From a virus, in the IMG/VR virus record IMGVR_UViG_3300046011_000553, positions 1 through 23,950 of that record: a stretch of DNA of 23,950 nt. One strand, given 5' to 3'. Shown piece by piece: positions 8,737 through 22,781 of this stretch. Under the pieces are notes generated by a model, which had not been told where the DNA came from, searched no databases, and saw nothing but the letters and a program-made list of their open reading frames with translations. Numbering within the stretch: position 1 is the stretch's first letter; each line of letters begins with the position of its first letter. The translations under genes were made by a program, and so were the position numbers.

Positions 8737-8744
8737 TATAAATA
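8737..8744 (+). promoter_or_regulatory. TATAAATA late-promoter-like element
   Basis: This is an exact TATAAATA, the T4 late promoter sequence, starting six bases after the terminator T-run and 29 bases before the next ATG (8766). The terminator-then-promoter layout argues that a new transcript starts here for the chaperone/tape-measure/tip genes. The longer match TAAATAACATTG resembles the portal-proximal element. Activity is inferred, and the matching sigma factor gene is not in the window. Confidence 0.5.
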
Positions 8745-13225: not shown

Positions 13226-13800
13226 TGGCATTAGATCTTTCATCATATACCTCAATTCAAACTAATCTATTTGTTAGATTAGATATCCCTGGCTATCAGG
13301 TATTAAAGTTTAGTGACTTTAACATTCCCTACACTATTAATAGCGAAAGCTATACTAGTCTAGGTAGCCTGCTATCTATTACTGATACTAGTAGCGAATT
13401 GCGTGCTACTTCACAAGAAGTGGCTGTTACTATTTCGGGCATTCCAGATGCTAATGTCATCGATATCTTAGACAATCCAGTTAAAGGTAGTAGCATTAAA
13501 ATCTATCGTGTATTCTTTAATCCACAGACTGGACAGGCACTAAGTATTAGTGGCAATCCTGCGCAGAAGTTTCAAGGTATTGTCAGCAACTATGATATCA
13601 GCGATGATTTAGATATGGGATCACAAACAGGTAGTGTTACACTGACCTTGGCTTGTACCAGCGTAGTTGAATTGTTAAACAATAAGGTAGCCGGTCGTAG
13701 AACAAATCCAGTGGATATGAAACAATATTATCCAACTGATGTTAGTTTCGATAATGTACTGGCATTAACAAATAGTAATTTTAACTTTGGAGCTGCATAA
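13225..13800 (+). CDS. Tail tip/hub protein
   Basis: The product has 191 residues and is coupled to both neighbours through TAATG overlaps. The sequence shows FVRLDIPGYQVLKFSDFNIP, an element of the type Y-x-x-LGSLLSI (residues about 42-50), then SSELRATSQEVAVTISGIPD, and ends with RRTNPVDMKQYYPTDVSFDN. This pattern of an early 'RLDI..LKFSD', a mid 'ELRA...E..ITISGIP' and a late 'RRTN...Q....P.D..FD' is typical of tail-tip hub-type proteins that sit between the distal tail ring and the J-like protein. Family identity is from pattern memory, so I keep the name general. Confidence 0.6.
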   Translation: MALDLSSYTSIQTNLFVRLDIPGYQVLKFSDFNIPYTINSESYTSLGSLLSITDTSSELRATSQEVAVTISGIPDANVIDILDNPVKGSSIKIYRVFFNPQTGQALSISGNPAQKFQGIVSNYDISDDLDMGSQTGSVTLTLACTSVVELLNNKVAGRRTNPVDMKQYYPTDVSFDNVLALTNSNFNFGAA

Positions 13801-16800
13801 TGGGATGGTTTGATGGAATAACGAGCATATTCAAAGGTGGCGGCATTGTAGGTGGTCTAGTTAAAACTGTGGCCATGGGTTATGTAGTCAACAAACTTAG
13901 TGCAAGTTCTACAAAAGGTAATAATAGCGGAAGTAGTATAAGTTCTACAGACATGAATGCTCCTGGCATTGATAATGGCGTTAGACTACAGGTTAATCCA
14001 GCTCCAGATGAAAAGATTCCGGTACTGTATGGTAGTGCTTTCTTTGGTGGTGTAATCTCCGAAGCTGTAATGTCAAATAATAATCAACGCATGACCTATG
14101 TGTTAACCTTAGCCGAAAAGACAGGCAATTTATACAGTTCAAGTTCCGCTACTAGTTATACCTTTGATTCAATCTTATGGGATGACCAATTAGTTTACTT
14201 TAAGGCTGATGGTGTTACGGTTGATTACACTGTTGATCGTGCTGGCAGTCGAGATGAAAGTTTAAGAGACTTAGTTAAAATTTACTGCTATGCTGGCAAT
14301 AGTAGTTCAACTAGTCAAAAATTCCCAACTGGATATAGTGGTACCGCAGTCAATGCATATAGCTTAATACCTGGATGGACAAGTGGCTATGCTATGAGCA
14401 ATTTAATATTTGCTGTGATTGAAGTAAACTATTCAGCAGCATATAATGTTAAAGGCATTGGCGATGTAACATTCCAAGTATCGAGTTCAATGTACAAACC
14501 TGGTGATGTACTATATGATTACATGACTAATTCGGTATTTGGTGCTAATATCGCCGTTGCTGAGATTGACACAGCAACTATCACAGCATTAAACAGTTAT
14601 TCTGCTAATAGTGTTACCTACACAGATGAAACTGGTAGTCATACATTGACTAATAGATATCAGATTAATGGTTTAGTTAATACCGATAATGAAGTAATGC
14701 GCAATGTTGAAGAAATTGCTAACTCAGCAGGTAGTTGGTTAAGCTACAGCGTCTTAACTGGCAAATGGGGTGTAATTATTAACCGTAGTGGTAGTAGTTC
14801 TATTGTCTTTGATGATAGTAACATCTTAGGTGGTATTAGTATCTCAGGTACTGGTTTAAAAGATCTGTACAACTCAGTTAAAACAGAATTCACTAACCGT
14901 GATATCCGTGACACTACAGATTATGTACAGGTTGTACTTCCTAACAATCTACGCAATGCTAATGAACAAGATAACACTTTAAACATTGCCTACAATTTAA
15001 TTAATGAACCAGTACAGGCACAATTACTTGGCTTTATTGAACTTAAACAAAGTCGTATTGATAAGGTAATTACATTCCAAAGTGACTATACTACTATAGG
15101 CTTAACTGCCGGTGAATTAATTAAAGTAACTAATAGCAAATTAGGCTTTAATGAAAAACTATTTCGTGTAATTAGTGTAGCAGAAGTATCTGGCGACGAA
15201 GGACTACAAAGTGAAATTACAGCCTTAGAATATGACAGTACTGTCTATGATGAGGATTTATCACGCTATACTCGTGTATTAAGTAATGGATTAATTACAG
15301 TAGGAAATATTGGTATTCCTAGTACACCAACAATTACCAAATATGAAGCTGCCGCGAGACCTCGCATTGAAATTAGTACTACAGCACCAACAGGTGTTAT
15401 CGAAGGGCTTGAATATTGGTTATCAAATGATGTTGGTGTAGGTGACGCACAGCGTAGTTATAGATTAATAGCAACTAAAGTTCCTACTAATGGCAATGCT
15501 AATGTACGAGGTACATTTATATCAGGGACCACAGTAAGTTTAGATTATGATACTATTGGTACAAGCAATCTTGTAGTTAAGACTCGTGCTTATAATAGTA
15601 CAACGGTTGGCCCATTTAGTAGCAATAGTGCTATTACTAGTTTTACAGCACAACAAACAACAGATCTAATTGGTCCTAATACCCAAGCAGTAAATGAACT
15701 TGGTGGATTAATGACTGCCTTATCGGTAGTTTCATTGTTGAATAATTTAGATGGATTATTTGGTAATAATGCGGCTTCAGCAGGAGGCCTATTTGAAAAA
15801 ATATTTGATGTCTTTAAAGATGAAACTGGATATGACATCGTAGGCGAAACAGCCGGCGGTAATTTAACAGTATCTAGTCAATTGGGTATTAAAGATGAAG
15901 GTACGCTTTTAACTAATGCGGCATCAACAATAAATTTTGTTGGTACTGGGGCAACTACTACTGTTTCAAATATTTCAGAAATAACTGTAACATTAAATGA
16001 TTCGTTTGGAACTATTTCTTCTAATAGTGGTATATCATCTACAACAGTAGCAGAAGCAGCTACTGCTTCATCTGCTAAATTAGCATTTGAATCTGCTCCT
16101 GTACAATTAGGCTGGAAAACATCTTTTGCGCCATGCTTTTTTGGATCGAGTGATACCTTAGGATTAGTAGATACTAGATATGGCATTTATACAGCTTGGC
16201 AACTTAGTCAAGGTACTGTACTTGCTTCAACTCCTGGATATGTTCCGCCGGCTGTGGTATCTTCAGGACAATATAATTTTTTAATTGATTTAATAGGTAC
16301 AGCATTAGATGCTAATATGCCTTCATTAAAAGTTTTTAGTCAAGGACAACCTCTTTCTACTTCTCCTAATCCTAATTGGAGTAATTCATTTGTAATAGAG
16401 GATTCGCCTAATTTAAATGATTATCCTGGAAAAATTTGGTGTTATTACGCAATTTGTACCTACGATGGTTCAAAAACATTACTTGAACAAGATTGGGGGA
16501 ATTGGAATTATTTATATGAGAGTAGTGGAAATGGATTATCATTTTCTGCTGCTAGTACACCTAATACTACTGTAGCTAGCACTTATGGTTCTGGTTCCTT
16601 GGGTTTACCTGGCATGAGAGATCATTGGTATTCGACGACTAATCCAATTCAAGGACGATATCAGATAGCAACTTTTGGTTCACCGGGGCCGGTGAGTGCG
16701 GCCCCTATATGTCCACTAACTCAACAATTTGGTAATAGTCCATATACAGCAGAAACTGATACAGGAATATCTTCTCCTCAGGCACCTGTTGGAAGAAATT

Positions 16801-17150
16801 TATGTAGGATTAAAAGTAAAACAAAGTTAATAACATTAGGAAATAATCAAATTATTACTTTTGGTATTAGTAATCAGAAATTTCAAAGTGGAACAGCATT
16901 TTCAGGTAATACTATTGTCGCACAAATGACACAACCAACTATTAATAATGGTTATAATGCCGACTTAAACTATTCATTTCCAGGATATACACCCATAACA
17001 GGAAACACAGCTCAAATTCCTTATAAGGTACCGTTTACCGGCACAGATTATGTTTATCCGACATCATCTACGACAGCAAATATAACAACTGCGGTTTGGT
17101 CACAAATCGGAATATTATGTCCATACATAGTAATTAAAAAACTTAATTAG
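13800..17150 (+). CDS. J-like tail tip attachment / host specificity protein
   Basis: The product has 1116 residues, encoded last in the tip block. It opens with a Gly-rich hydrophobic region (IFKGGGIVGGLVKTVAMGYV), then LQVNPAPDEKIPVLYGSAFF, the start of the hub domain of J-like proteins. Residues about 150-490 have the strand-rich hub pattern with a conserved-looking LSYSVLTGKWGVIINRSGSS. Residues about 500-615 look like a fibronectin-III-like domain. Residues about 693-725 (IKDEGTLLTNAASTINFVGT) match a beta module I know from phage fibres. Residues from about 740 are a separate 370-residue globular domain, rich in Asn/Ser/Tyr/Trp, probably the receptor-binding part. G+C falls within this gene, from 38% just upstream (13441-13620) to 29% (16261-16440). 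The domain boundaries are approximate. Confidence 0.82.
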   Translation: MGWFDGITSIFKGGGIVGGLVKTVAMGYVVNKLSASSTKGNNSGSSISSTDMNAPGIDNGVRLQVNPAPDEKIPVLYGSAFFGGVISEAVMSNNNQRMTYVLTLAEKTGNLYSSSSATSYTFDSILWDDQLVYFKADGVTVDYTVDRAGSRDESLRDLVKIYCYAGNSSSTSQKFPTGYSGTAVNAYSLIPGWTSGYAMSNLIFAVIEVNYSAAYNVKGIGDVTFQVSSSMYKPGDVLYDYMTNSVFGANIAVAEIDTATITALNSYSANSVTYTDETGSHTLTNRYQINGLVNTDNEVMRNVEEIANSAGSWLSYSVLTGKWGVIINRSGSSSIVFDDSNILGGISISGTGLKDLYNSVKTEFTNRDIRDTTDYVQVVLPNNLRNANEQDNTLNIAYNLINEPVQAQLLGFIELKQSRIDKVITFQSDYTTIGLTAGELIKVTNSKLGFNEKLFRVISVAEVSGDEGLQSEITALEYDSTVYDEDLSRYTRVLSNGLITVGNIGIPSTPTITKYEAAARPRIEISTTAPTGVIEGLEYWLSNDVGVGDAQRSYRLIATKVPTNGNANVRGTFISGTTVSLDYDTIGTSNLVVKTRAYNSTTVGPFSSNSAITSFTAQQTTDLIGPNTQAVNELGGLMTALSVVSLLNNLDGLFGNNAASAGGLFEKIFDVFKDETGYDIVGETAGGNLTVSSQLGIKDEGTLLTNAASTINFVGTGATTTVSNISEITVTLNDSFGTISSNSGISSTTVAEAATASSAKLAFESAPVQLGWKTSFAPCFFGSSDTLGLVDTRYGIYTAWQLSQGTVLASTPGYVPPAVVSSGQYNFLIDLIGTALDANMPSLKVFSQGQPLSTSPNPNWSNSFVIEDSPNLNDYPGKIWCYYAICTYDGSKTLLEQDWGNWNYLYESSGNGLSFSAASTPNTTVASTYGSGSLGLPGMRDHWYSTTNPIQGRYQIATFGSPGPVSAAPICPLTQQFGNSPYTAETDTGISSPQAPVGRNLCRIKSKTKLITLGNNQIITFGISNQKFQSGTAFSGNTIVAQMTQPTINNGYNADLNYSFPGYTPITGNTAQIPYKVPFTGTDYVYPTSSTTANITTAVWSQIGILCPYIVIKKLN
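16681..16705 (+). repeat. All-G/C inverted repeat inside the AT-rich tip domain
   Basis: GGGGCCG (16685-16691) and CGGCCCC (16699-16705) are perfect complements around a 7-base loop, a stem made only of G and C. An overlapping second palindrome, CACCGG (16681-16686) with CCGGTG (16689-16694), shares its bases. The flanks are AT-rich coding sequence for SPGPVSAAPICP. No T-run follows, so it is not an ordinary terminator. Confidence 0.7.
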
Positions 17151-17161
17151 GAAATAATTAA

Positions 17162-17503
17162 ATGATTATATATAAAAAATATATCGAAATAAAAATTAAA
17201 AAAAATGAATGTGATTGTTTTGATTATTCAATTGATAAATTAAAATTGTTTCTAACTGATAGTTCATTATTTGAAAAAAATATTTTTAGTAACAAATTAA
17301 AATTACAAAAATTTAATCTTGATGATTTTGGTATTATATTAATTCCAAATAATACAGATATTAATCTATTAGATTATATTGATATCTTAAAAAAAATGTT
17401 TGATTGCGCTGAATTTAAAGAATTATCATTTGATGAATATATATTTTATTTTAATGAACATAGACAAAATTTAGTAATGGAACTTTATTTTGAAGATCAA
17501 TAA
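17162..17503 (+). CDS. AT-rich orphan protein, 113 aa
   Basis: The product has 113 residues and starts 11 bases after the tip gene, with TTAGGAAA at 17147-17154 overlapping the tip gene's stop. It is rich in Ile, Lys, Phe, Asn and Asp (MIIYKKYIEIKIKKNECDCF and following), with no signal peptide or membrane segment. The composition is extreme: 27 G or C among the 180 bases 17221-17400 (15%), against about 38% upstream in the tip hub gene. Poly-A runs up to seven bases occur. This base use marks it as recently acquired. Position right behind the receptor-binding domain suggests a fibre/tip assembly chaperone or a 'moron' acting in the host. I do not recognise the family. Confidence 0.65.
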   Translation: MIIYKKYIEIKIKKNECDCFDYSIDKLKLFLTDSSLFEKNIFSNKLKLQKFNLDDFGIILIPNNTDINLLDYIDILKKMFDCAEFKELSFDEYIFYFNEHRQNLVMELYFEDQ

Positions 17504-17523
17504 TATTCAAAATTTAATCTAAC

Positions 17524-17529
17524 TAAATA
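17524..17529 (+). promoter_or_regulatory. TAAATA promoter-like element before the fibre block
   Basis: TAAATA (context CTAAATAATAGC) lies in the 89-base gap before the gene at 17593. It differs from the other copies in being 69 bases from the start codon, with a hairpin (17545-17573) in between, which would then lie in the mRNA leader. Confidence 0.3.
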
Positions 17530-17544
17530 ATAGCTATAACATGC

Positions 17545-17573
17545 AATTTGTACTGCCTCATGCAGTACAAGTT
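17545..17573 (+). terminator. Hairpin upstream of fibre genes: weak terminator or leader stem
   Basis: The stem is TTGTACTGC (17548-17556) with GCAGTACAA (17562-17570), a perfect 9 bp around the loop CTCAT. It extends to 12 bp with one T-G wobble and two A-T pairs. Only three Ts follow (17572-17574), so termination would be weak. It may instead stabilise or process the mRNA, or work with the TAAATA element just upstream. Confidence 0.5.
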
Positions 17574-17592
17574 TAACCCTTAGGAGCATAAC

Positions 17593-18093
17593 ATGGCTGG
17601 TATTCTTTCGTTTAACCAATATCTTGGTGGCCCTGATCAAATTCAAATTGAACAGGTATTTCCAAAAAATCAAAAAACTCTAATCTATAACTTCAATCAG
17701 AATATTACTGGTTGGACTTTTGAATTAGACCAACAAACTCTCGTCGTTGATACAATGACTTTTAATAGAAATACAGGGCAACCTAATTTCTCAACCAGCT
17801 CAGTTATTGGCTTCTTTCCAAAAGCAGAACTTACAGGTAGTGCCGTTGTAACTAATGCCGCACTTGGACTTGTTAATGTTACATTTCCACAAAATATGTA
17901 TGCTGGTCCTATCATTCCTGATGCACGATTAAATGTGCCAATCACCATTGTTGCTCTTACATGGACTGATGCACAAACTCCGGCACAAATCAATACACAT
18001 CGTTGGGCATTAGTACAATGCTGGGAACCAGATGTAGTTCCAGGTGACCCAACAGCAAGTGTTAGTCCACTTTACACAGCTATAGGAGTTTAA
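17593..18093 (+). CDS. Structural protein, possible fibre/baseplate anchor
   Basis: The product has 166 residues and is encoded directly before the long collagen fibre, with TTAGGAG at 17580-17586. It is beta-rich, with NFNQNITGWTFELDQQTLVV (about 34-53), then TAAALGLVNVTFPQNMYAG-type strands near 85-105, and a Pro-rich end. This resembles the N-terminal domain of baseplate/fibre anchor proteins (BppU-like), in which a segment on the input pattern 'G.TF.L' is followed by 'G.V.V.LP..'. Identity is tentative. A role linking the fibre to the tail is inferred from position. No enzyme motifs are seen. Confidence 0.5.
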   Translation: MAGILSFNQYLGGPDQIQIEQVFPKNQKTLIYNFNQNITGWTFELDQQTLVVDTMTFNRNTGQPNFSTSSVIGFFPKAELTGSAVVTNAALGLVNVTFPQNMYAGPIIPDARLNVPITIVALTWTDAQTPAQINTHRWALVQCWEPDVVPGDPTASVSPLYTAIGV

Positions 18094-18095
18094 TC

Positions 18096-21000
18096 ATGGC
18101 ATATACAATAGAAATTACCGAAGTAGGTAGTAATGTAAGTATTACAAATAGTAATCCAGTAATCGAAGTAAGTTACAATAGCATATCAGTCGAAGGTCCA
18201 GCAGGCCCACAAGGACCAGCAGGTACAAGTGTAGTACTAAAAGGTTCAGTTGCCGCAGTTATTAATTTACCAGCATCTGGTAATACTTTAGGTGACTTAT
18301 ATGTAGTTACTGCTGATGGCAATGGTTATGTATGGGATGGCTCAGCATGGGATAATGCTGGTCCAATTCGTGGACCACAAGGGGCTACTGGTGCAACAGG
18401 AGCAACTGGCTCACAAGGCATACAGGGCAATATTGGCTTAACAGGGGCTACTGGCCCACAAGGAATACAAGGCGAGCAAGGAATACAGGGTAATGTAGGT
18501 GCTACCGGCGCACAAGGTGTTATTGGACTTACCGGCGCAACCGGAGCAACTGGAGCTACTGGTAGTAAGGGAGATAAAGGCGATACTGGTGATCAAGGCA
18601 TACAAGGCATTCAGGGTAATGTTGGTGCTACTGGCTCACAAGGCATTCAAGGCGTTAAAGGTGATACTGGTAATATTGGCGCAACTGGAGCAACTGGTCC
18701 ACAAGGAATACAGGGTAATGTAGGGGCTACTGGTAGTCAAGGCATTCAAGGAATTCAAGGCGACACTGGCGCTACTGGTGCACAGGGCATTCAAGGCATT
18801 AAAGGCGATACTGGTAGTCAAGGCATACAGGGAAATATTGGCTTAACAGGTGCCACTGGTCCACAAGGGATACAGGGCGAACAAGGCATTCAAGGAAATG
18901 TCGGAGCTAAAGGCGACAAAGGCGACATTGGTAACACTGGTGCTCAAGGTGCTTCATTACATATTCTTGGAAGTAAAGTAGATGTTATCTCATTACCAAC
19001 TACTGGTAATGTAGGTGAAGCATGGGTTGTTGACAGTGACGGTGACTTATATGTTTGGAATACAATTACAAGTGTATGGGATGATATTGGACAAATTGTA
19101 GGTCCACAAGGGGCTACTGGTAGTACAGGCGCAACTGGAGCAACTGGTGCTACTGGTGCACAGGGCATTCAAGGCGAACAAGGAATACAGGGTAATGTAG
19201 GTGCTACTGGTGCTACTGGTAGTAAAGGCGACAAGGGCGACACTGGCGATCAAGGAATACAGGGTATTCAAGGCATTCAAGGCATTAAAGGCGATACTGG
19301 TGATCAAGGCATTCAAGGAAATGTTGGTGCTACTGGCCCACAAGGGATACAGGGCAATATAGGTGCTACTGGGGCTACTGGATCACAGGGAATTAAAGGT
19401 GACACTGGTGAGCAAGGCATACAAGGCATTCAAGGCATACAGGGCATTCAAGGAAATGTTGGTGCCAAGGGTGATACTGGTAATACTGGAGCAACTGGTA
19501 GTCAAGGCATTCAAGGAAATGTTGGTGCTACTGGTAGTCAAGGCATTCAGGGCATTCAAGGAGAGCAAGGCATTCAAGGGAATGTAGGTGCTACTGGTGC
19601 TACTGGACCACAAGGTATTATCGGTGCTACTGGCCCACAAGGGATACAAGGAAATATTGGTAATGTTGGACCTGTTGGCAGTTCAGGTGTAGCTTGGCGC
19701 TATGATTCATCTACTACTATGGCTGATCCGGGTAGTGCTGACTTCCGTATTAATAATGCAAACATTGCTATAGCAACCTCAATGACTATTAGTAATGTTA
19801 GTGTAAACTCATTTAATCAATCAAGCTGGTTAAACACTTGGAATGATAGTGGAGTAAGTCCATATGGTTCCTTATATCTATATTCATCATCAACTGGTGA
19901 GTTTGCTCCTGCTATATTAAATGTAACCGGAATCACTTATAATACAGGGTATGCTACATTAACTTTTCAATATCTAAGTGGAAGTATAACCAATATTAAT
20001 ACTTCAATACATTATTTAAATTTCCAGAGAGCAGGTGCTACTGGTGCAACTGGCGGTACTGGACCAACTGGCGGAGCATTAGTTTATAAGTTTGATACCT
20101 CAACAGATACTACTACAACAACTCCTGGTTCTAATTTAAGATTTAATAATACCTCAAGTTCAGCAGTTACTGAAATTGCTTGGCACCAAAATGATAATGG
20201 CGGTATTAATCAGGATGGTGTATTTCAAACTTGGGACGATAGTACCAGTGCAGTAAAAGGCTATATCTATGTTAATAGTTATGCTGGTGGTAGTCAAGGT
20301 GTTTATCGATTAAACACTTTAACAGATAATGGTCTATGGTATCGTGCCAATGTAACTTATATTTCTGGTTTAACTGTAGAACAATTAGTATACGGTGGCG
20401 ATCAAACTCCGCTTACTATAGCATTTAATAGAGTAGGTGATAAGGGTGATACAGGTGCTACTGGTATTAGTATTAGTACAGCAGAAATAGATCAACTTAC
20501 TGGTAATTTAATTATTACTTTAACAGATGCTTCAACAGTTGATGCCGGACTTGCTATTGGTGATACTGGTGCTACTGGCCCACAAGGGATACAGGGCAAT
20601 ATAGGTGCTACCGGAGCAACTGGTGCTACTGGCCCACAAGGGATACAGGGCAATGTAGGGGCTACTGGATCAACTGGCAATACTGGAGCAACTGGAGCAA
20701 CCGGCCCACAAGGGATACAGGGCATACAGGGTAATGTTGGCCCACAAGGGATACAGGGCATACAGGGTAATGTTGGTCCGGCCGGCAGTGGATTAACTTC
20801 AGTAGTAGATGATACAACTCCTGAACTTGGTGGCAATTTAGATTTAAATGGCTATAACATTACAAGTGCTAACCCATTCTATGTTCAAATTGGAAGTGAA
20901 ATTGGCAATCCTGCTAAAGGGGTAGTATATTCAGTAGATAAAGTAGATCATAGCAAAGCAATTAATATCTTCGGACTTACTGATACTAGTTCAATGGATA

Positions 21001-22781
21001 AAGAAGGTTTAAAAATTGGTGGTAGTTCAGGTGGACCAATGGGTATTAATGTTCAGAATGATACCTTAGGTGCAAACACAGGCTCAGCTATGAGTCATGT
21101 ACAACTTATTACTACGGTTGTCGAAGGTCAATCTACAACTGTTGAATTTGCTAAAACAGGTCCAGGATGGGATGGCAGTAGTGGTATTGGTTCTTTTGTA
21201 ACAGCGTGGAAATCAGGTGATGCTGGTTTCTTAAACTTTGGTTACGATATGCGTATTGGTGCTAGTGGCGCTCTAGGATCACCTCAGGGCAATATTATAT
21301 TTGGTACACATGCCGAAGGTGCTGATACAGTAACATTTGACCTAAGTACCGGCACAAGTGATGTAATTTTACACTCAGGTAACCTACGATTAGCCGCTAC
21401 GAAAGCAATTAATTTTAATGGTGATTTACTTACAGTTACTGGTGGTAATTTAACATTAAACGGAACAGCTATCGGTCTAACTGGCCCACAAGGGGCTACT
21501 GGTGCTACTGGTGCTACTGGCCCACAAGGGATACAGGGCAATGTAGGGGCTACTGGAGCAACTGGTGCTACTGGTGCTACTGGCCCACAAGGGATACAGG
21601 GCAATGTAGGGGCTACTGGTAGTAACGGATTATCCACTCTTATTAGTGATACTGCTCCACAACTTGGTGGTAACTTAGATCCAAATGGTCATAGTTATAC
21701 AGCGGCTAATATATGGACTGGACATAGTTTTACATTATCCGGTGTTGATGGTGGGCTTGAGCTAAGTGCTTTAAGTGGTGGGCTTAAATTTACTGCACCT
21801 GTTGGTTTTAAAGATGTTGGTGTTAAAATAGTTACTAATGCAGCTAACGGTGCTAATACAAATCCAGGTGGTGGCGGAAGTGATGGTCCAAGTATGACTA
21901 TTACAAATCTACACACTGCTGCAAGTGCCGAAGCAAGTATAGAAATGAGTGGTGGTGACGGATCATACGGCAAGTTTGGGTTCTTCAAAGGTATAAACTC
22001 ACACTATACACATCCGTTCTCAGTTAATATGCATCCAGGTGATGGTGGTATGTATGTAAATGGTGGTGATTTCCATATTAGTCCGTTTAGTTTAGACTTT
22101 GGACAAATGAATCCATTCGTTGGTGGTAAAGTTAAATTTACTGGTTTACTTGAAACAAATCCAGCATTTGAATTTGATTTGAACTCAGGCGATTTAACTT
22201 TCGATAAAGGAAATATTCTATTAGCCGCTAACAAAGGTATCTATGCTGATAGTGGACTTGTTATTGGCAGTGATGATGTTATATTAGGACAAGGTAATGC
22301 TACAGTTATGTCCGAAGTTGCAATTACCACAGCAGGTGGACAAGGTTTATTCTTTGATACTAATCAAGGCGTTGACACTGGCTTCTTTATGATTAACTCA
22401 GGTGTTAATGGTGATATTGAGATTACTCCTAACGGAACTGGTCGCACAGTAATTGCCAATGCTACATTATCAGGATATGCCGAAACTGTTTATGATTTAG
22501 GCACAACTGGTGGTACTATTGCTCCAAATGCGGCCAATGGTAATGTACAAAAAATTACTCTTAACTCAGCACTAACACTTAATGCATTTACAAATCCAGT
22601 TGCTGGTCAAAGTATTACATTGATTATTACTGGTGGTACTGCGTATACAAGTATTACCTCAACAATGAAATGGGCTGGTGGAGTTAAAACACTTACTGCT
22701 ACTGCTGGATGTATTGATATTGTTACTATGTTCTATGATGGTACAAATTATCTTGCAAGTATTTCAAAAGGATTCGCATAA
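18096..22781 (+). CDS. Collagen-like tail fibre protein
   Basis: The product is a 1561-residue fibre with several Gly-X-Y tracts, such as GPQGIQGNVGATG, that should form collagen-like triple helices. Short N-terminal GPAGPQGPAG is at 34-43. Long tracts are about 93-286 and 336-531, and shorter ones 822-898 and 1130-1178. Globular modules alternate with them: two copies of a domain with GDLYVVTADGNGYVWDGSAW-type sequence (about 48-92 and 290-335), two with YDSSTTMADPGS-type sequence (about 532-650 and 661-785), and two with a TPELGGNLDLNG-type start (about 907 and 1186). The C-terminal 100 residues (NGNVQKITLNSALTLNAF...) form a beta-rich tip typical of phage fibres. TAGGAG at 18083-18088 precedes the start. 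The receptor is unknown. Confidence 0.9.
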   Translation: MAYTIEITEVGSNVSITNSNPVIEVSYNSISVEGPAGPQGPAGTSVVLKGSVAAVINLPASGNTLGDLYVVTADGNGYVWDGSAWDNAGPIRGPQGATGATGATGSQGIQGNIGLTGATGPQGIQGEQGIQGNVGATGAQGVIGLTGATGATGATGSKGDKGDTGDQGIQGIQGNVGATGSQGIQGVKGDTGNIGATGATGPQGIQGNVGATGSQGIQGIQGDTGATGAQGIQGIKGDTGSQGIQGNIGLTGATGPQGIQGEQGIQGNVGAKGDKGDIGNTGAQGASLHILGSKVDVISLPTTGNVGEAWVVDSDGDLYVWNTITSVWDDIGQIVGPQGATGSTGATGATGATGAQGIQGEQGIQGNVGATGATGSKGDKGDTGDQGIQGIQGIQGIKGDTGDQGIQGNVGATGPQGIQGNIGATGATGSQGIKGDTGEQGIQGIQGIQGIQGNVGAKGDTGNTGATGSQGIQGNVGATGSQGIQGIQGEQGIQGNVGATGATGPQGIIGATGPQGIQGNIGNVGPVGSSGVAWRYDSSTTMADPGSADFRINNANIAIATSMTISNVSVNSFNQSSWLNTWNDSGVSPYGSLYLYSSSTGEFAPAILNVTGITYNTGYATLTFQYLSGSITNINTSIHYLNFQRAGATGATGGTGPTGGALVYKFDTSTDTTTTTPGSNLRFNNTSSSAVTEIAWHQNDNGGINQDGVFQTWDDSTSAVKGYIYVNSYAGGSQGVYRLNTLTDNGLWYRANVTYISGLTVEQLVYGGDQTPLTIAFNRVGDKGDTGATGISISTAEIDQLTGNLIITLTDASTVDAGLAIGDTGATGPQGIQGNIGATGATGATGPQGIQGNVGATGSTGNTGATGATGPQGIQGIQGNVGPQGIQGIQGNVGPAGSGLTSVVDDTTPELGGNLDLNGYNITSANPFYVQIGSEIGNPAKGVVYSVDKVDHSKAINIFGLTDTSSMDKEGLKIGGSSGGPMGINVQNDTLGANTGSAMSHVQLITTVVEGQSTTVEFAKTGPGWDGSSGIGSFVTAWKSGDAGFLNFGYDMRIGASGALGSPQGNIIFGTHAEGADTVTFDLSTGTSDVILHSGNLRLAATKAINFNGDLLTVTGGNLTLNGTAIGLTGPQGATGATGATGPQGIQGNVGATGATGATGATGPQGIQGNVGATGSNGLSTLISDTAPQLGGNLDPNGHSYTAANIWTGHSFTLSGVDGGLELSALSGGLKFTAPVGFKDVGVKIVTNAANGANTNPGGGGSDGPSMTITNLHTAASAEASIEMSGGDGSYGKFGFFKGINSHYTHPFSVNMHPGDGGMYVNGGDFHISPFSLDFGQMNPFVGGKVKFTGLLETNPAFEFDLNSGDLTFDKGNILLAANKGIYADSGLVIGSDDVILGQGNATVMSEVAITTAGGQGLFFDTNQGVDTGFFMINSGVNGDIEITPNGTGRTVIANATLSGYAETVYDLGTTGGTIAPNAANGNVQKITLNSALTLNAFTNPVAGQSITLIITGGTAYTSITSTMKWAGGVKTLTATAGCIDIVTMFYDGTNYLASISKGFA
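18372..18954 (+). repeat. Collagen-coding repeat tract 1
   Basis: This tract codes for an almost unbroken Gly-X-Y series with nine-base periodicity (GGN-NNN-NNN) inside the fibre gene. Recurrent coding blocks are GPQGIQGEQG, GIQGNVGATG and GDTGSQG. The reverse strand and other frames stay open because of the periodicity; those open frames are not genes. Confidence 0.9.
19101..19689 (+). repeat. Collagen-coding repeat tract 2
   Basis: The longest Gly-X-Y tract of the fibre gene, following the second copy of the YVW-type globular module. It includes GIQGIQGIQG iterations and GATGATG blocks, with DNA blocks nearly identical to tract 1. It ends in GNVGPVGSSG before the third module type. Confidence 0.9.
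20559..20790 (+). repeat. Collagen-coding repeat tract 3
   Basis: A shorter Gly-X-Y tract. It holds a 38-base stretch starting at 20631 that recurs exactly at 21519 and 21582, and an in-tract duplication of a GPQGIQGIQGNV coding block near 20705 and 20739. Confidence 0.88.
21483..21628 (+). repeat. Collagen-coding repeat tract 4
   Basis: The last Gly-X-Y tract of the fibre gene. Two copies of the same 38-base sequence start 63 bases apart, at 21519 and 21582, and a third copy lies 888 bases upstream at 20631. All are in the same reading frame. Confidence 0.88.

Follow-up and report, generated by a model that had tools for sequence, protein, structure and literature searches.

Genes and features of the tail-tip region

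The window, by which we mean the whole stretch of DNA analysed here, is a complete IMG/VR contig of 23,950 bases (class linear) and probably represents a genome fragment of a phage from uncultured samples. It encodes terminase, an SPP1-type portal, capsid, a tail tape measure, tail tip proteins, a J-like protein, fibre genes and a glycine-rich protein. Directly 5' of the terminase genes, at 542-2365, an unusual fusion protein of 607 aa joins a ParB_N domain at its N-terminus (3.5e-11) to a group 1 glycosyltransferase at its C-terminus (1.7e-7). The window has no close counterpart among isolated phages, the nearest J protein being that of Methylophilaceae phage P19250A. The region from the J-like gene onwards contains the following features:

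13800-16004, + strand: conserved hub of the J-like central tail protein, spanning residues 1 to about 733-735 (from homology)
16005-17150, + strand: C-terminal tip domain of J (residues 736-1116), exchangeable by comparison with relatives and presumed to bind the receptor
17149-17154, + strand: AGGAAA, Shine-Dalgarno-like, overlapping the J stop codon (direct reading)
17162-17503, + strand: acidic, AT-rich orphan gene of 113 aa, 16.1% G+C, pI 4.75 (open reading frame with a homologue in contig L020)
17524-17529, + strand: TAAATA, a late-promoter-like element marking the right edge of the exchanged segment (from leader comparison)
17545-17573, + strand: leader hairpin with the loop CCTCAT(G), at the start of the downstream fibre module (folding z -3.25)
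17578-17586, + strand: CCTTAGGAG, Shine-Dalgarno sequence of the 166-aa gene
17593-18093, + strand: conserved 166-aa gene flanking the exchanged segment on the right
18096-22781, + strand: collagen-repeat tail fibre protein of 1561 aa (Pfam Collagen 1.2e-71; PHROG tail fibre families)

The hub part of J matches both the T5 baseplate hub pb3 (8hqz, 5e-8; 7zhj, 1e-6) and the 'host specificity protein J' of P19250A (1e-55, 28.7% identity over 72%), and is thus a homologue of gpJ/pb3-type tail hubs. The gene order, namely a Tape_meas_lam_C tape measure, a phrog_1302 distal tail protein, a phrog_2048 tail protein, J and the collagen fibre, is likewise that of such a hub, with tape measure, tail tip proteins, J and fibre in succession. 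Hubs roughly 37-73% identical to that of the window are present in many contigs, while their C-termini differ. Given the homology with pb3 and what is known of gpJ, the C-terminus of J should be located at the distal tip and contact the host receptor, and it is from this position and homology that we infer a role of the tip domain in receptor binding and host range.

Searched against 50,697 phage records, PDB sequences, Pfam, PHROGs and NCBIfam, the tip domain itself gave no match. Its relatives were found solely in contigs L020 (28-34% identity) and L086 (26%). Scans of viral contigs with the tip returned only L020, which is the same contig as L002, and a scan of genome contigs returned nothing; L086 was detected solely by a profile search of the collected related loci. 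Clustering of J C-termini at E < 1e-4 over-merged them via shared linkers and was left out of the argument. The AlphaFold model of the tip is of low confidence (pLDDT 33.4), and a GC-rich hairpin within the tip gene (16680) folds no better than shuffled sequences (z -1.1).

Borders of the exchanged segment and the history of its contents

Pairwise DNA comparison of the window with L017, L090, L020 and L134 placed the borders of the segment. On the left, homology breaks at window positions 15765 (L017), 15772 (L090) and 15988 (L020), and on the right it picks up again at 17508 (L134; 629 nt at 86.6% identity) and 17611 (L020 and L090). The initial annotation had delimited a cassette at 15880-17503, both ends of which fall within about 120 bases of these homology borders, and its prediction that exactly this segment would be replaced in related phages is borne out. 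In the comparison of L020 with L090, homology stops at about residue 661 of the L020 J protein and returns at the CATAAATA leader of the 166-aa gene. The gc3 change point of the L020 J protein (residue 654) coincides with the homology break. The flanks are homologous and the segment between them has been replaced, which demonstrates both the borders and the exchange of contents between relatives; in what follows this segment is referred to as the slot.

The relatives retain the T5-pb3/gpJ-like hub but differ in the C-terminus and in the downstream genes. The slots of L090, L023 and L027 hold a different tip, which in L090 contains Big_5 domains, and a gene of 1300-1670 aa; that of L032 holds a 254-aa gene; and in L071, L084 and L128 there is nothing beyond the end of J. 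Small cysteine-rich proteins ending in CPLxKW are encoded in the slots of L030 (11061-11243), L126 (13093-13287) and L208 (5477-5728), the last of which matches DUF6171 (5.4e-7). These proteins suggest that the slot commonly gathers small accessory genes.

The history of the slot disagrees with that of its left flank. In the hub tree, the window, L017, L020, L004 and L090 form one clade (100/100), within which L020 groups with L004 and L090 (100/99), and a clade of the window and L020 hubs is rejected (p-AU 0.0012). The tip type and the AT-rich gene are nevertheless common to the window and L020, whereas L004 and L090 carry another tip, no small gene and another downstream gene. Since the L020 hub groups with hubs bearing the other tip, the segment must have changed at least twice. 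In addition, this tip type is joined in L086 to a less closely related hub (53% identical), and the small gene is missing there. The tree conflict and the L086 case together indicate that the segment was exchanged, or gained and lost, repeatedly. Judging by the tip identity of only 28-34%, the acquisition is not recent relative to L020.

How closely the small gene follows the tip can be read from the same contigs. The initial annotation had proposed the acquisition of a new receptor-binding domain together with a linked small gene. The exchange, the tree conflict and the recurrence of a homologue beside the same tip type in L020 support this proposal, and the small gene does accompany the tip there; strict linkage, by contrast, is contradicted by L086, and composition does not mark the tip (see below). 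The link between tip and small gene is real in two contigs but optional, and the case for co-transfer rests on these two.

The right border coincides with a distinctive leader. At 17524-17592 the window has TAAATA, a covarying hairpin and then CCCTTAGGAG, and the same leader is found upstream of the homologue of the 166-aa gene in about 60 contigs (e.g. L020 14040-14100, L090 18833-18894 and L134 9916-10000). TAAATA occurs in 59 of 60 such leaders (0.6 expected), and in 40 of the 60 a perfectly paired stem of 8 bp or more is present, compared with 1.8 in shuffles. The stems vary freely in sequence yet still pair, i.e. they covary, and the loops are mostly CCNYAG. The leader of the window has no match among Rfam families. 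Across 23 related loci TAAATA is the most enriched intergenic hexamer (61 occurrences, 6.4 expected). In the window it is present on the + strand at five gene junctions (516, 4003, 5689, 8739 and 17524), at 8739 after a terminator-like hairpin. The late promoter of T4 is TATAAATA. TAAATA resembles it, with the hairpin located at about the expected 5' end; the putative T4-like late promoter thus occurs in a lineage with a lambda/T5-type tail.

The 166-aa protein is 91% identical in L134-136, where it is found behind different tip genes, and neither isolated phages nor PHROGs gave a match to its family. The leader and the 166-aa gene (17508-18133) are 86.6% identical at the DNA level to those of L134, even though the two J hubs are no more than 45% identical, and in both the window and L134 collagen fibre repeats come next. 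The high conservation of the 166-aa protein behind different tips and a divergent hub indicates that the fibre module (17508-22781) is itself independently mobile. A self-contained leader, consisting of TAAATA and the covarying hairpin, would explain how fibre modules can move behind different tips without loss of expression.

Base composition and the small AT-rich gene

The earlier counts of G+C in three 180-nt stretches (68, 53 and 27) are exact on recount, and the region of 15% G+C that they pointed to is real and extreme: 180-nt windows have a mean G+C of 38.5% (sd 6.0), a minimum of 12.8% at 17131, and values of at most 25% at start positions confined to 17040-17419. The small gene at 17162-17503 (16.1% G+C; 29, 12 and 7.0% at codon positions one to three) stands far below the next-lowest gene of the window (33.3%) and below its neighbours, J (36.2%) and the next gene (17593-18093, 38.5%), where the drop ends as proposed. 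Its proposed beginning at the tip domain, however, is not seen in plain G+C, because residues 736-1116 of J (35.8%) do not differ from residues 301-735 (35.6%), and J outside its C-terminal part has 36-38%. The 29% stretch at 16261-16440 is one among several similar local dips (for example 378-577, 2070-2394 and 14978-15176). The tip is AT-shifted at synonymous sites only (gc3s 0.130 against 0.213 expected, z -4.0), less strongly than the small gene (0.045 against 0.264, z -5.3), and the collagen fibre gene is shifted likewise (z -3.8). With the tip equal in G+C to the rest of J and the fibre gene also shifted, composition alone flags the small gene as unusual, and not the tip domain. A 23-nt near-repeat (91%) between 16835-16857, inside the tip domain, and 17146-17168, at the J stop and the start of the small gene, might be a mark of past recombination or a chance match in AT-rich DNA.

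These data also bear on the view that composition drifted gradually and nothing was exchanged. In its favour, gc3 inside J declines gradually from about residue 398, a change point away from the domain border, and the tips of L004, L086 and L090 are AT-shifted as well. The small gene, however, forms an abrupt step at both sides, and the homology breaks and the tree conflict reveal exchange independently of composition. Gradual drift is therefore very improbable: both the small gene and the segment contradict it, and it holds for plain G+C within J.

Several observations show the small open reading frame to be a real gene. A run of 113 open codons would arise with P = 1.4e-6 in random DNA of this composition, none of 5000 permutations reached its difference in G+C between codon phases (29/12/7%), the other forward frames contain 10 and 27 stops, and L020 carries a homologue (105 aa, 20.1% G+C, pI 4.59) in the same place. 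The two proteins are very divergent (pairwise E 0.003), with a local alignment score of 63 against a best score of 61 in 2000 shuffles, and have a CDC-D motif in common. The gene starts 11 nt past the J stop, and AGGAAA lies 7 nt ahead of its ATG at 17162. Neither of the two small genes has a match in Pfam or NCBIfam, and that of the window has none in PHROGs or PADLOC and returned nothing from scans of viral contigs; it represents a new gene family and the sole new part of the module. Direct reading of the N-termini, MIIYKKYIEIKIKKNECDC and MITKVLRIKYNQYGNCDC, gave no sign of a signal peptide or lipobox in either protein. Together with a pI of 4.75, this makes a cytosolic location of the window protein likely. 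Its AlphaFold model is of low confidence (pLDDT 46.6).

What the small protein does may be considered in the light of these properties. We tentatively favour an assembly chaperone dedicated to the tip: a soluble protein, synthesised directly after J, that would fold or trimerise the C-terminal tip and be absent from the virion. The location of the gene 11 nt behind J and its recurrence with the same tip type are consistent with such a role, as are the acidic, soluble-looking character of both proteins (pI 4.75 and 4.59), seen without signal sequences, and the joint movement of fibre and chaperone pairs in other phages (PMC10579305). On the other hand, neither gene matches a tail fibre chaperone family (Tfa, gp38, DUF4376) in Pfam or NCBIfam, nor does the window gene in PHROGs, the tip type occurs in L086 unaccompanied by the small gene, and the low-confidence model gives no usable structure. 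Ranked after the chaperone, though also plausible, is a moron or selfish passenger inserted at a recombination-prone site and acting in the cell, in counter-defence or host takeover, with no relation to tip folding. The extreme composition (gc3 7%) gives the gene a foreign look, and unrelated small genes, such as the DUF6171-type, occupy other slots; however, the L020 homologue, with a similarly extreme composition, is found in the same place next to this tip type, which points to a stable pairing rather than a passenger, and the gene has no match in PADLOC.

Two further readings are much less probable. Linkage of a small gene to a receptor-type domain would also fit a protein that blocks superinfection by masking the receptor of the tip, as T5 Llp or lambdoid Cor do, and gp25 of Alteromonas phage V22 (107 aa, in a matching position) has, on direct reading, a lipobox-like start. 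We regard this as improbable for the window gene, since neither it nor its L020 homologue displays a signal peptide or lipobox, and neither protein resembles V22 gp25 (scores below the shuffle mean). The order of a receptor protein followed by a gene of about 110 aa also recalls a diversity-generating retroelement that diversifies the C-terminus of J with the small gene as accessory protein. We reject this reading as next to impossible: there is no second copy of the J 3' end, and hence no template repeat of the Mtd-Avd type, in the window or L020, and the window proteins that were searched include no identified reverse transcriptase.

Interpretation and comparison with known systems

Taken together, the data make it quite likely that the window contains, from about 15,770/15,990 to 17,507, a replaceable tail-tip slot between a conserved hub and a fibre module, here holding a tip together with a co-transferred gene. 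The left flank is the conserved tail hub (J residues 1 to about 733) and the right flank the conserved fibre module, opening with its own promoter-like leader. The contents are the C-terminal tip of J, of about 380 residues, and the AT-rich 113-aa gene. The exchangeable end is probably the host-recognising part of the tail: if, as the position of gpJ and pb3 implies, the tip is where the J C-terminus protrudes and meets the host receptor, recombination in the shared flanks would switch host recognition in a single step. More tentatively, the small acidic cytosolic protein may assist the folding or assembly of this particular tip.

Tip swapping is a well-known route for phages to change hosts, and our main result is therefore an ordinary, well-delimited example of modular tail-tip exchange in an uncultured lineage. 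More may be learnt from two other parts: the right border of the slot, and the orphan small gene with its recurrence beside the same tip type. In a bolder version, which we consider doubtful, the small gene would found a new family of tip-dedicated proteins, whether assembly factors or receptor-related, that travel with one class of J tips, and the right edge of the slot would be a dedicated late-promoter-plus-hairpin leader allowing the fibre module to join any tip and still be expressed.

Small genes near receptor-binding genes are known from T5 (Llp) and lambdoid phages (Cor). The window gene is similar in location but has no visible signal peptide or lipobox and no family match. Alteromonas phages of podo-, myo- and siphovirus form have fibre plus chaperone modules in common, and those of V22 and A5 run from central fibre through a gene of about 110 aa and tail fibre to chaperone (PMC10579305). 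The window resembles the V22/A5/P24 modules in the order of central fibre, hypothetical gene and tail fibre (V22 and A5), and in having a module common to different phages. However, V22 gp24 has no similarity to the tip, and gp25, lipoprotein-like and unrelated in sequence to the small gene, was rejected as its counterpart; moreover, the DUF4376 chaperone that follows the V22 fibre was not found in the window. P19250A, the closest isolated phage by J hub, has a different C-terminus, no small AT-rich gene after J and no detected homologue of the 166-aa protein, but its fibre genes follow J as they do in the window. Finally, the J-like protein of the window is akin to lambda gpJ and T5 pb3 in the homology of the hub, in its position downstream of the tape measure, where the tail operon ends, and in its variable C-terminus, although the sequence of its last ~380 residues matches no known tip domain.
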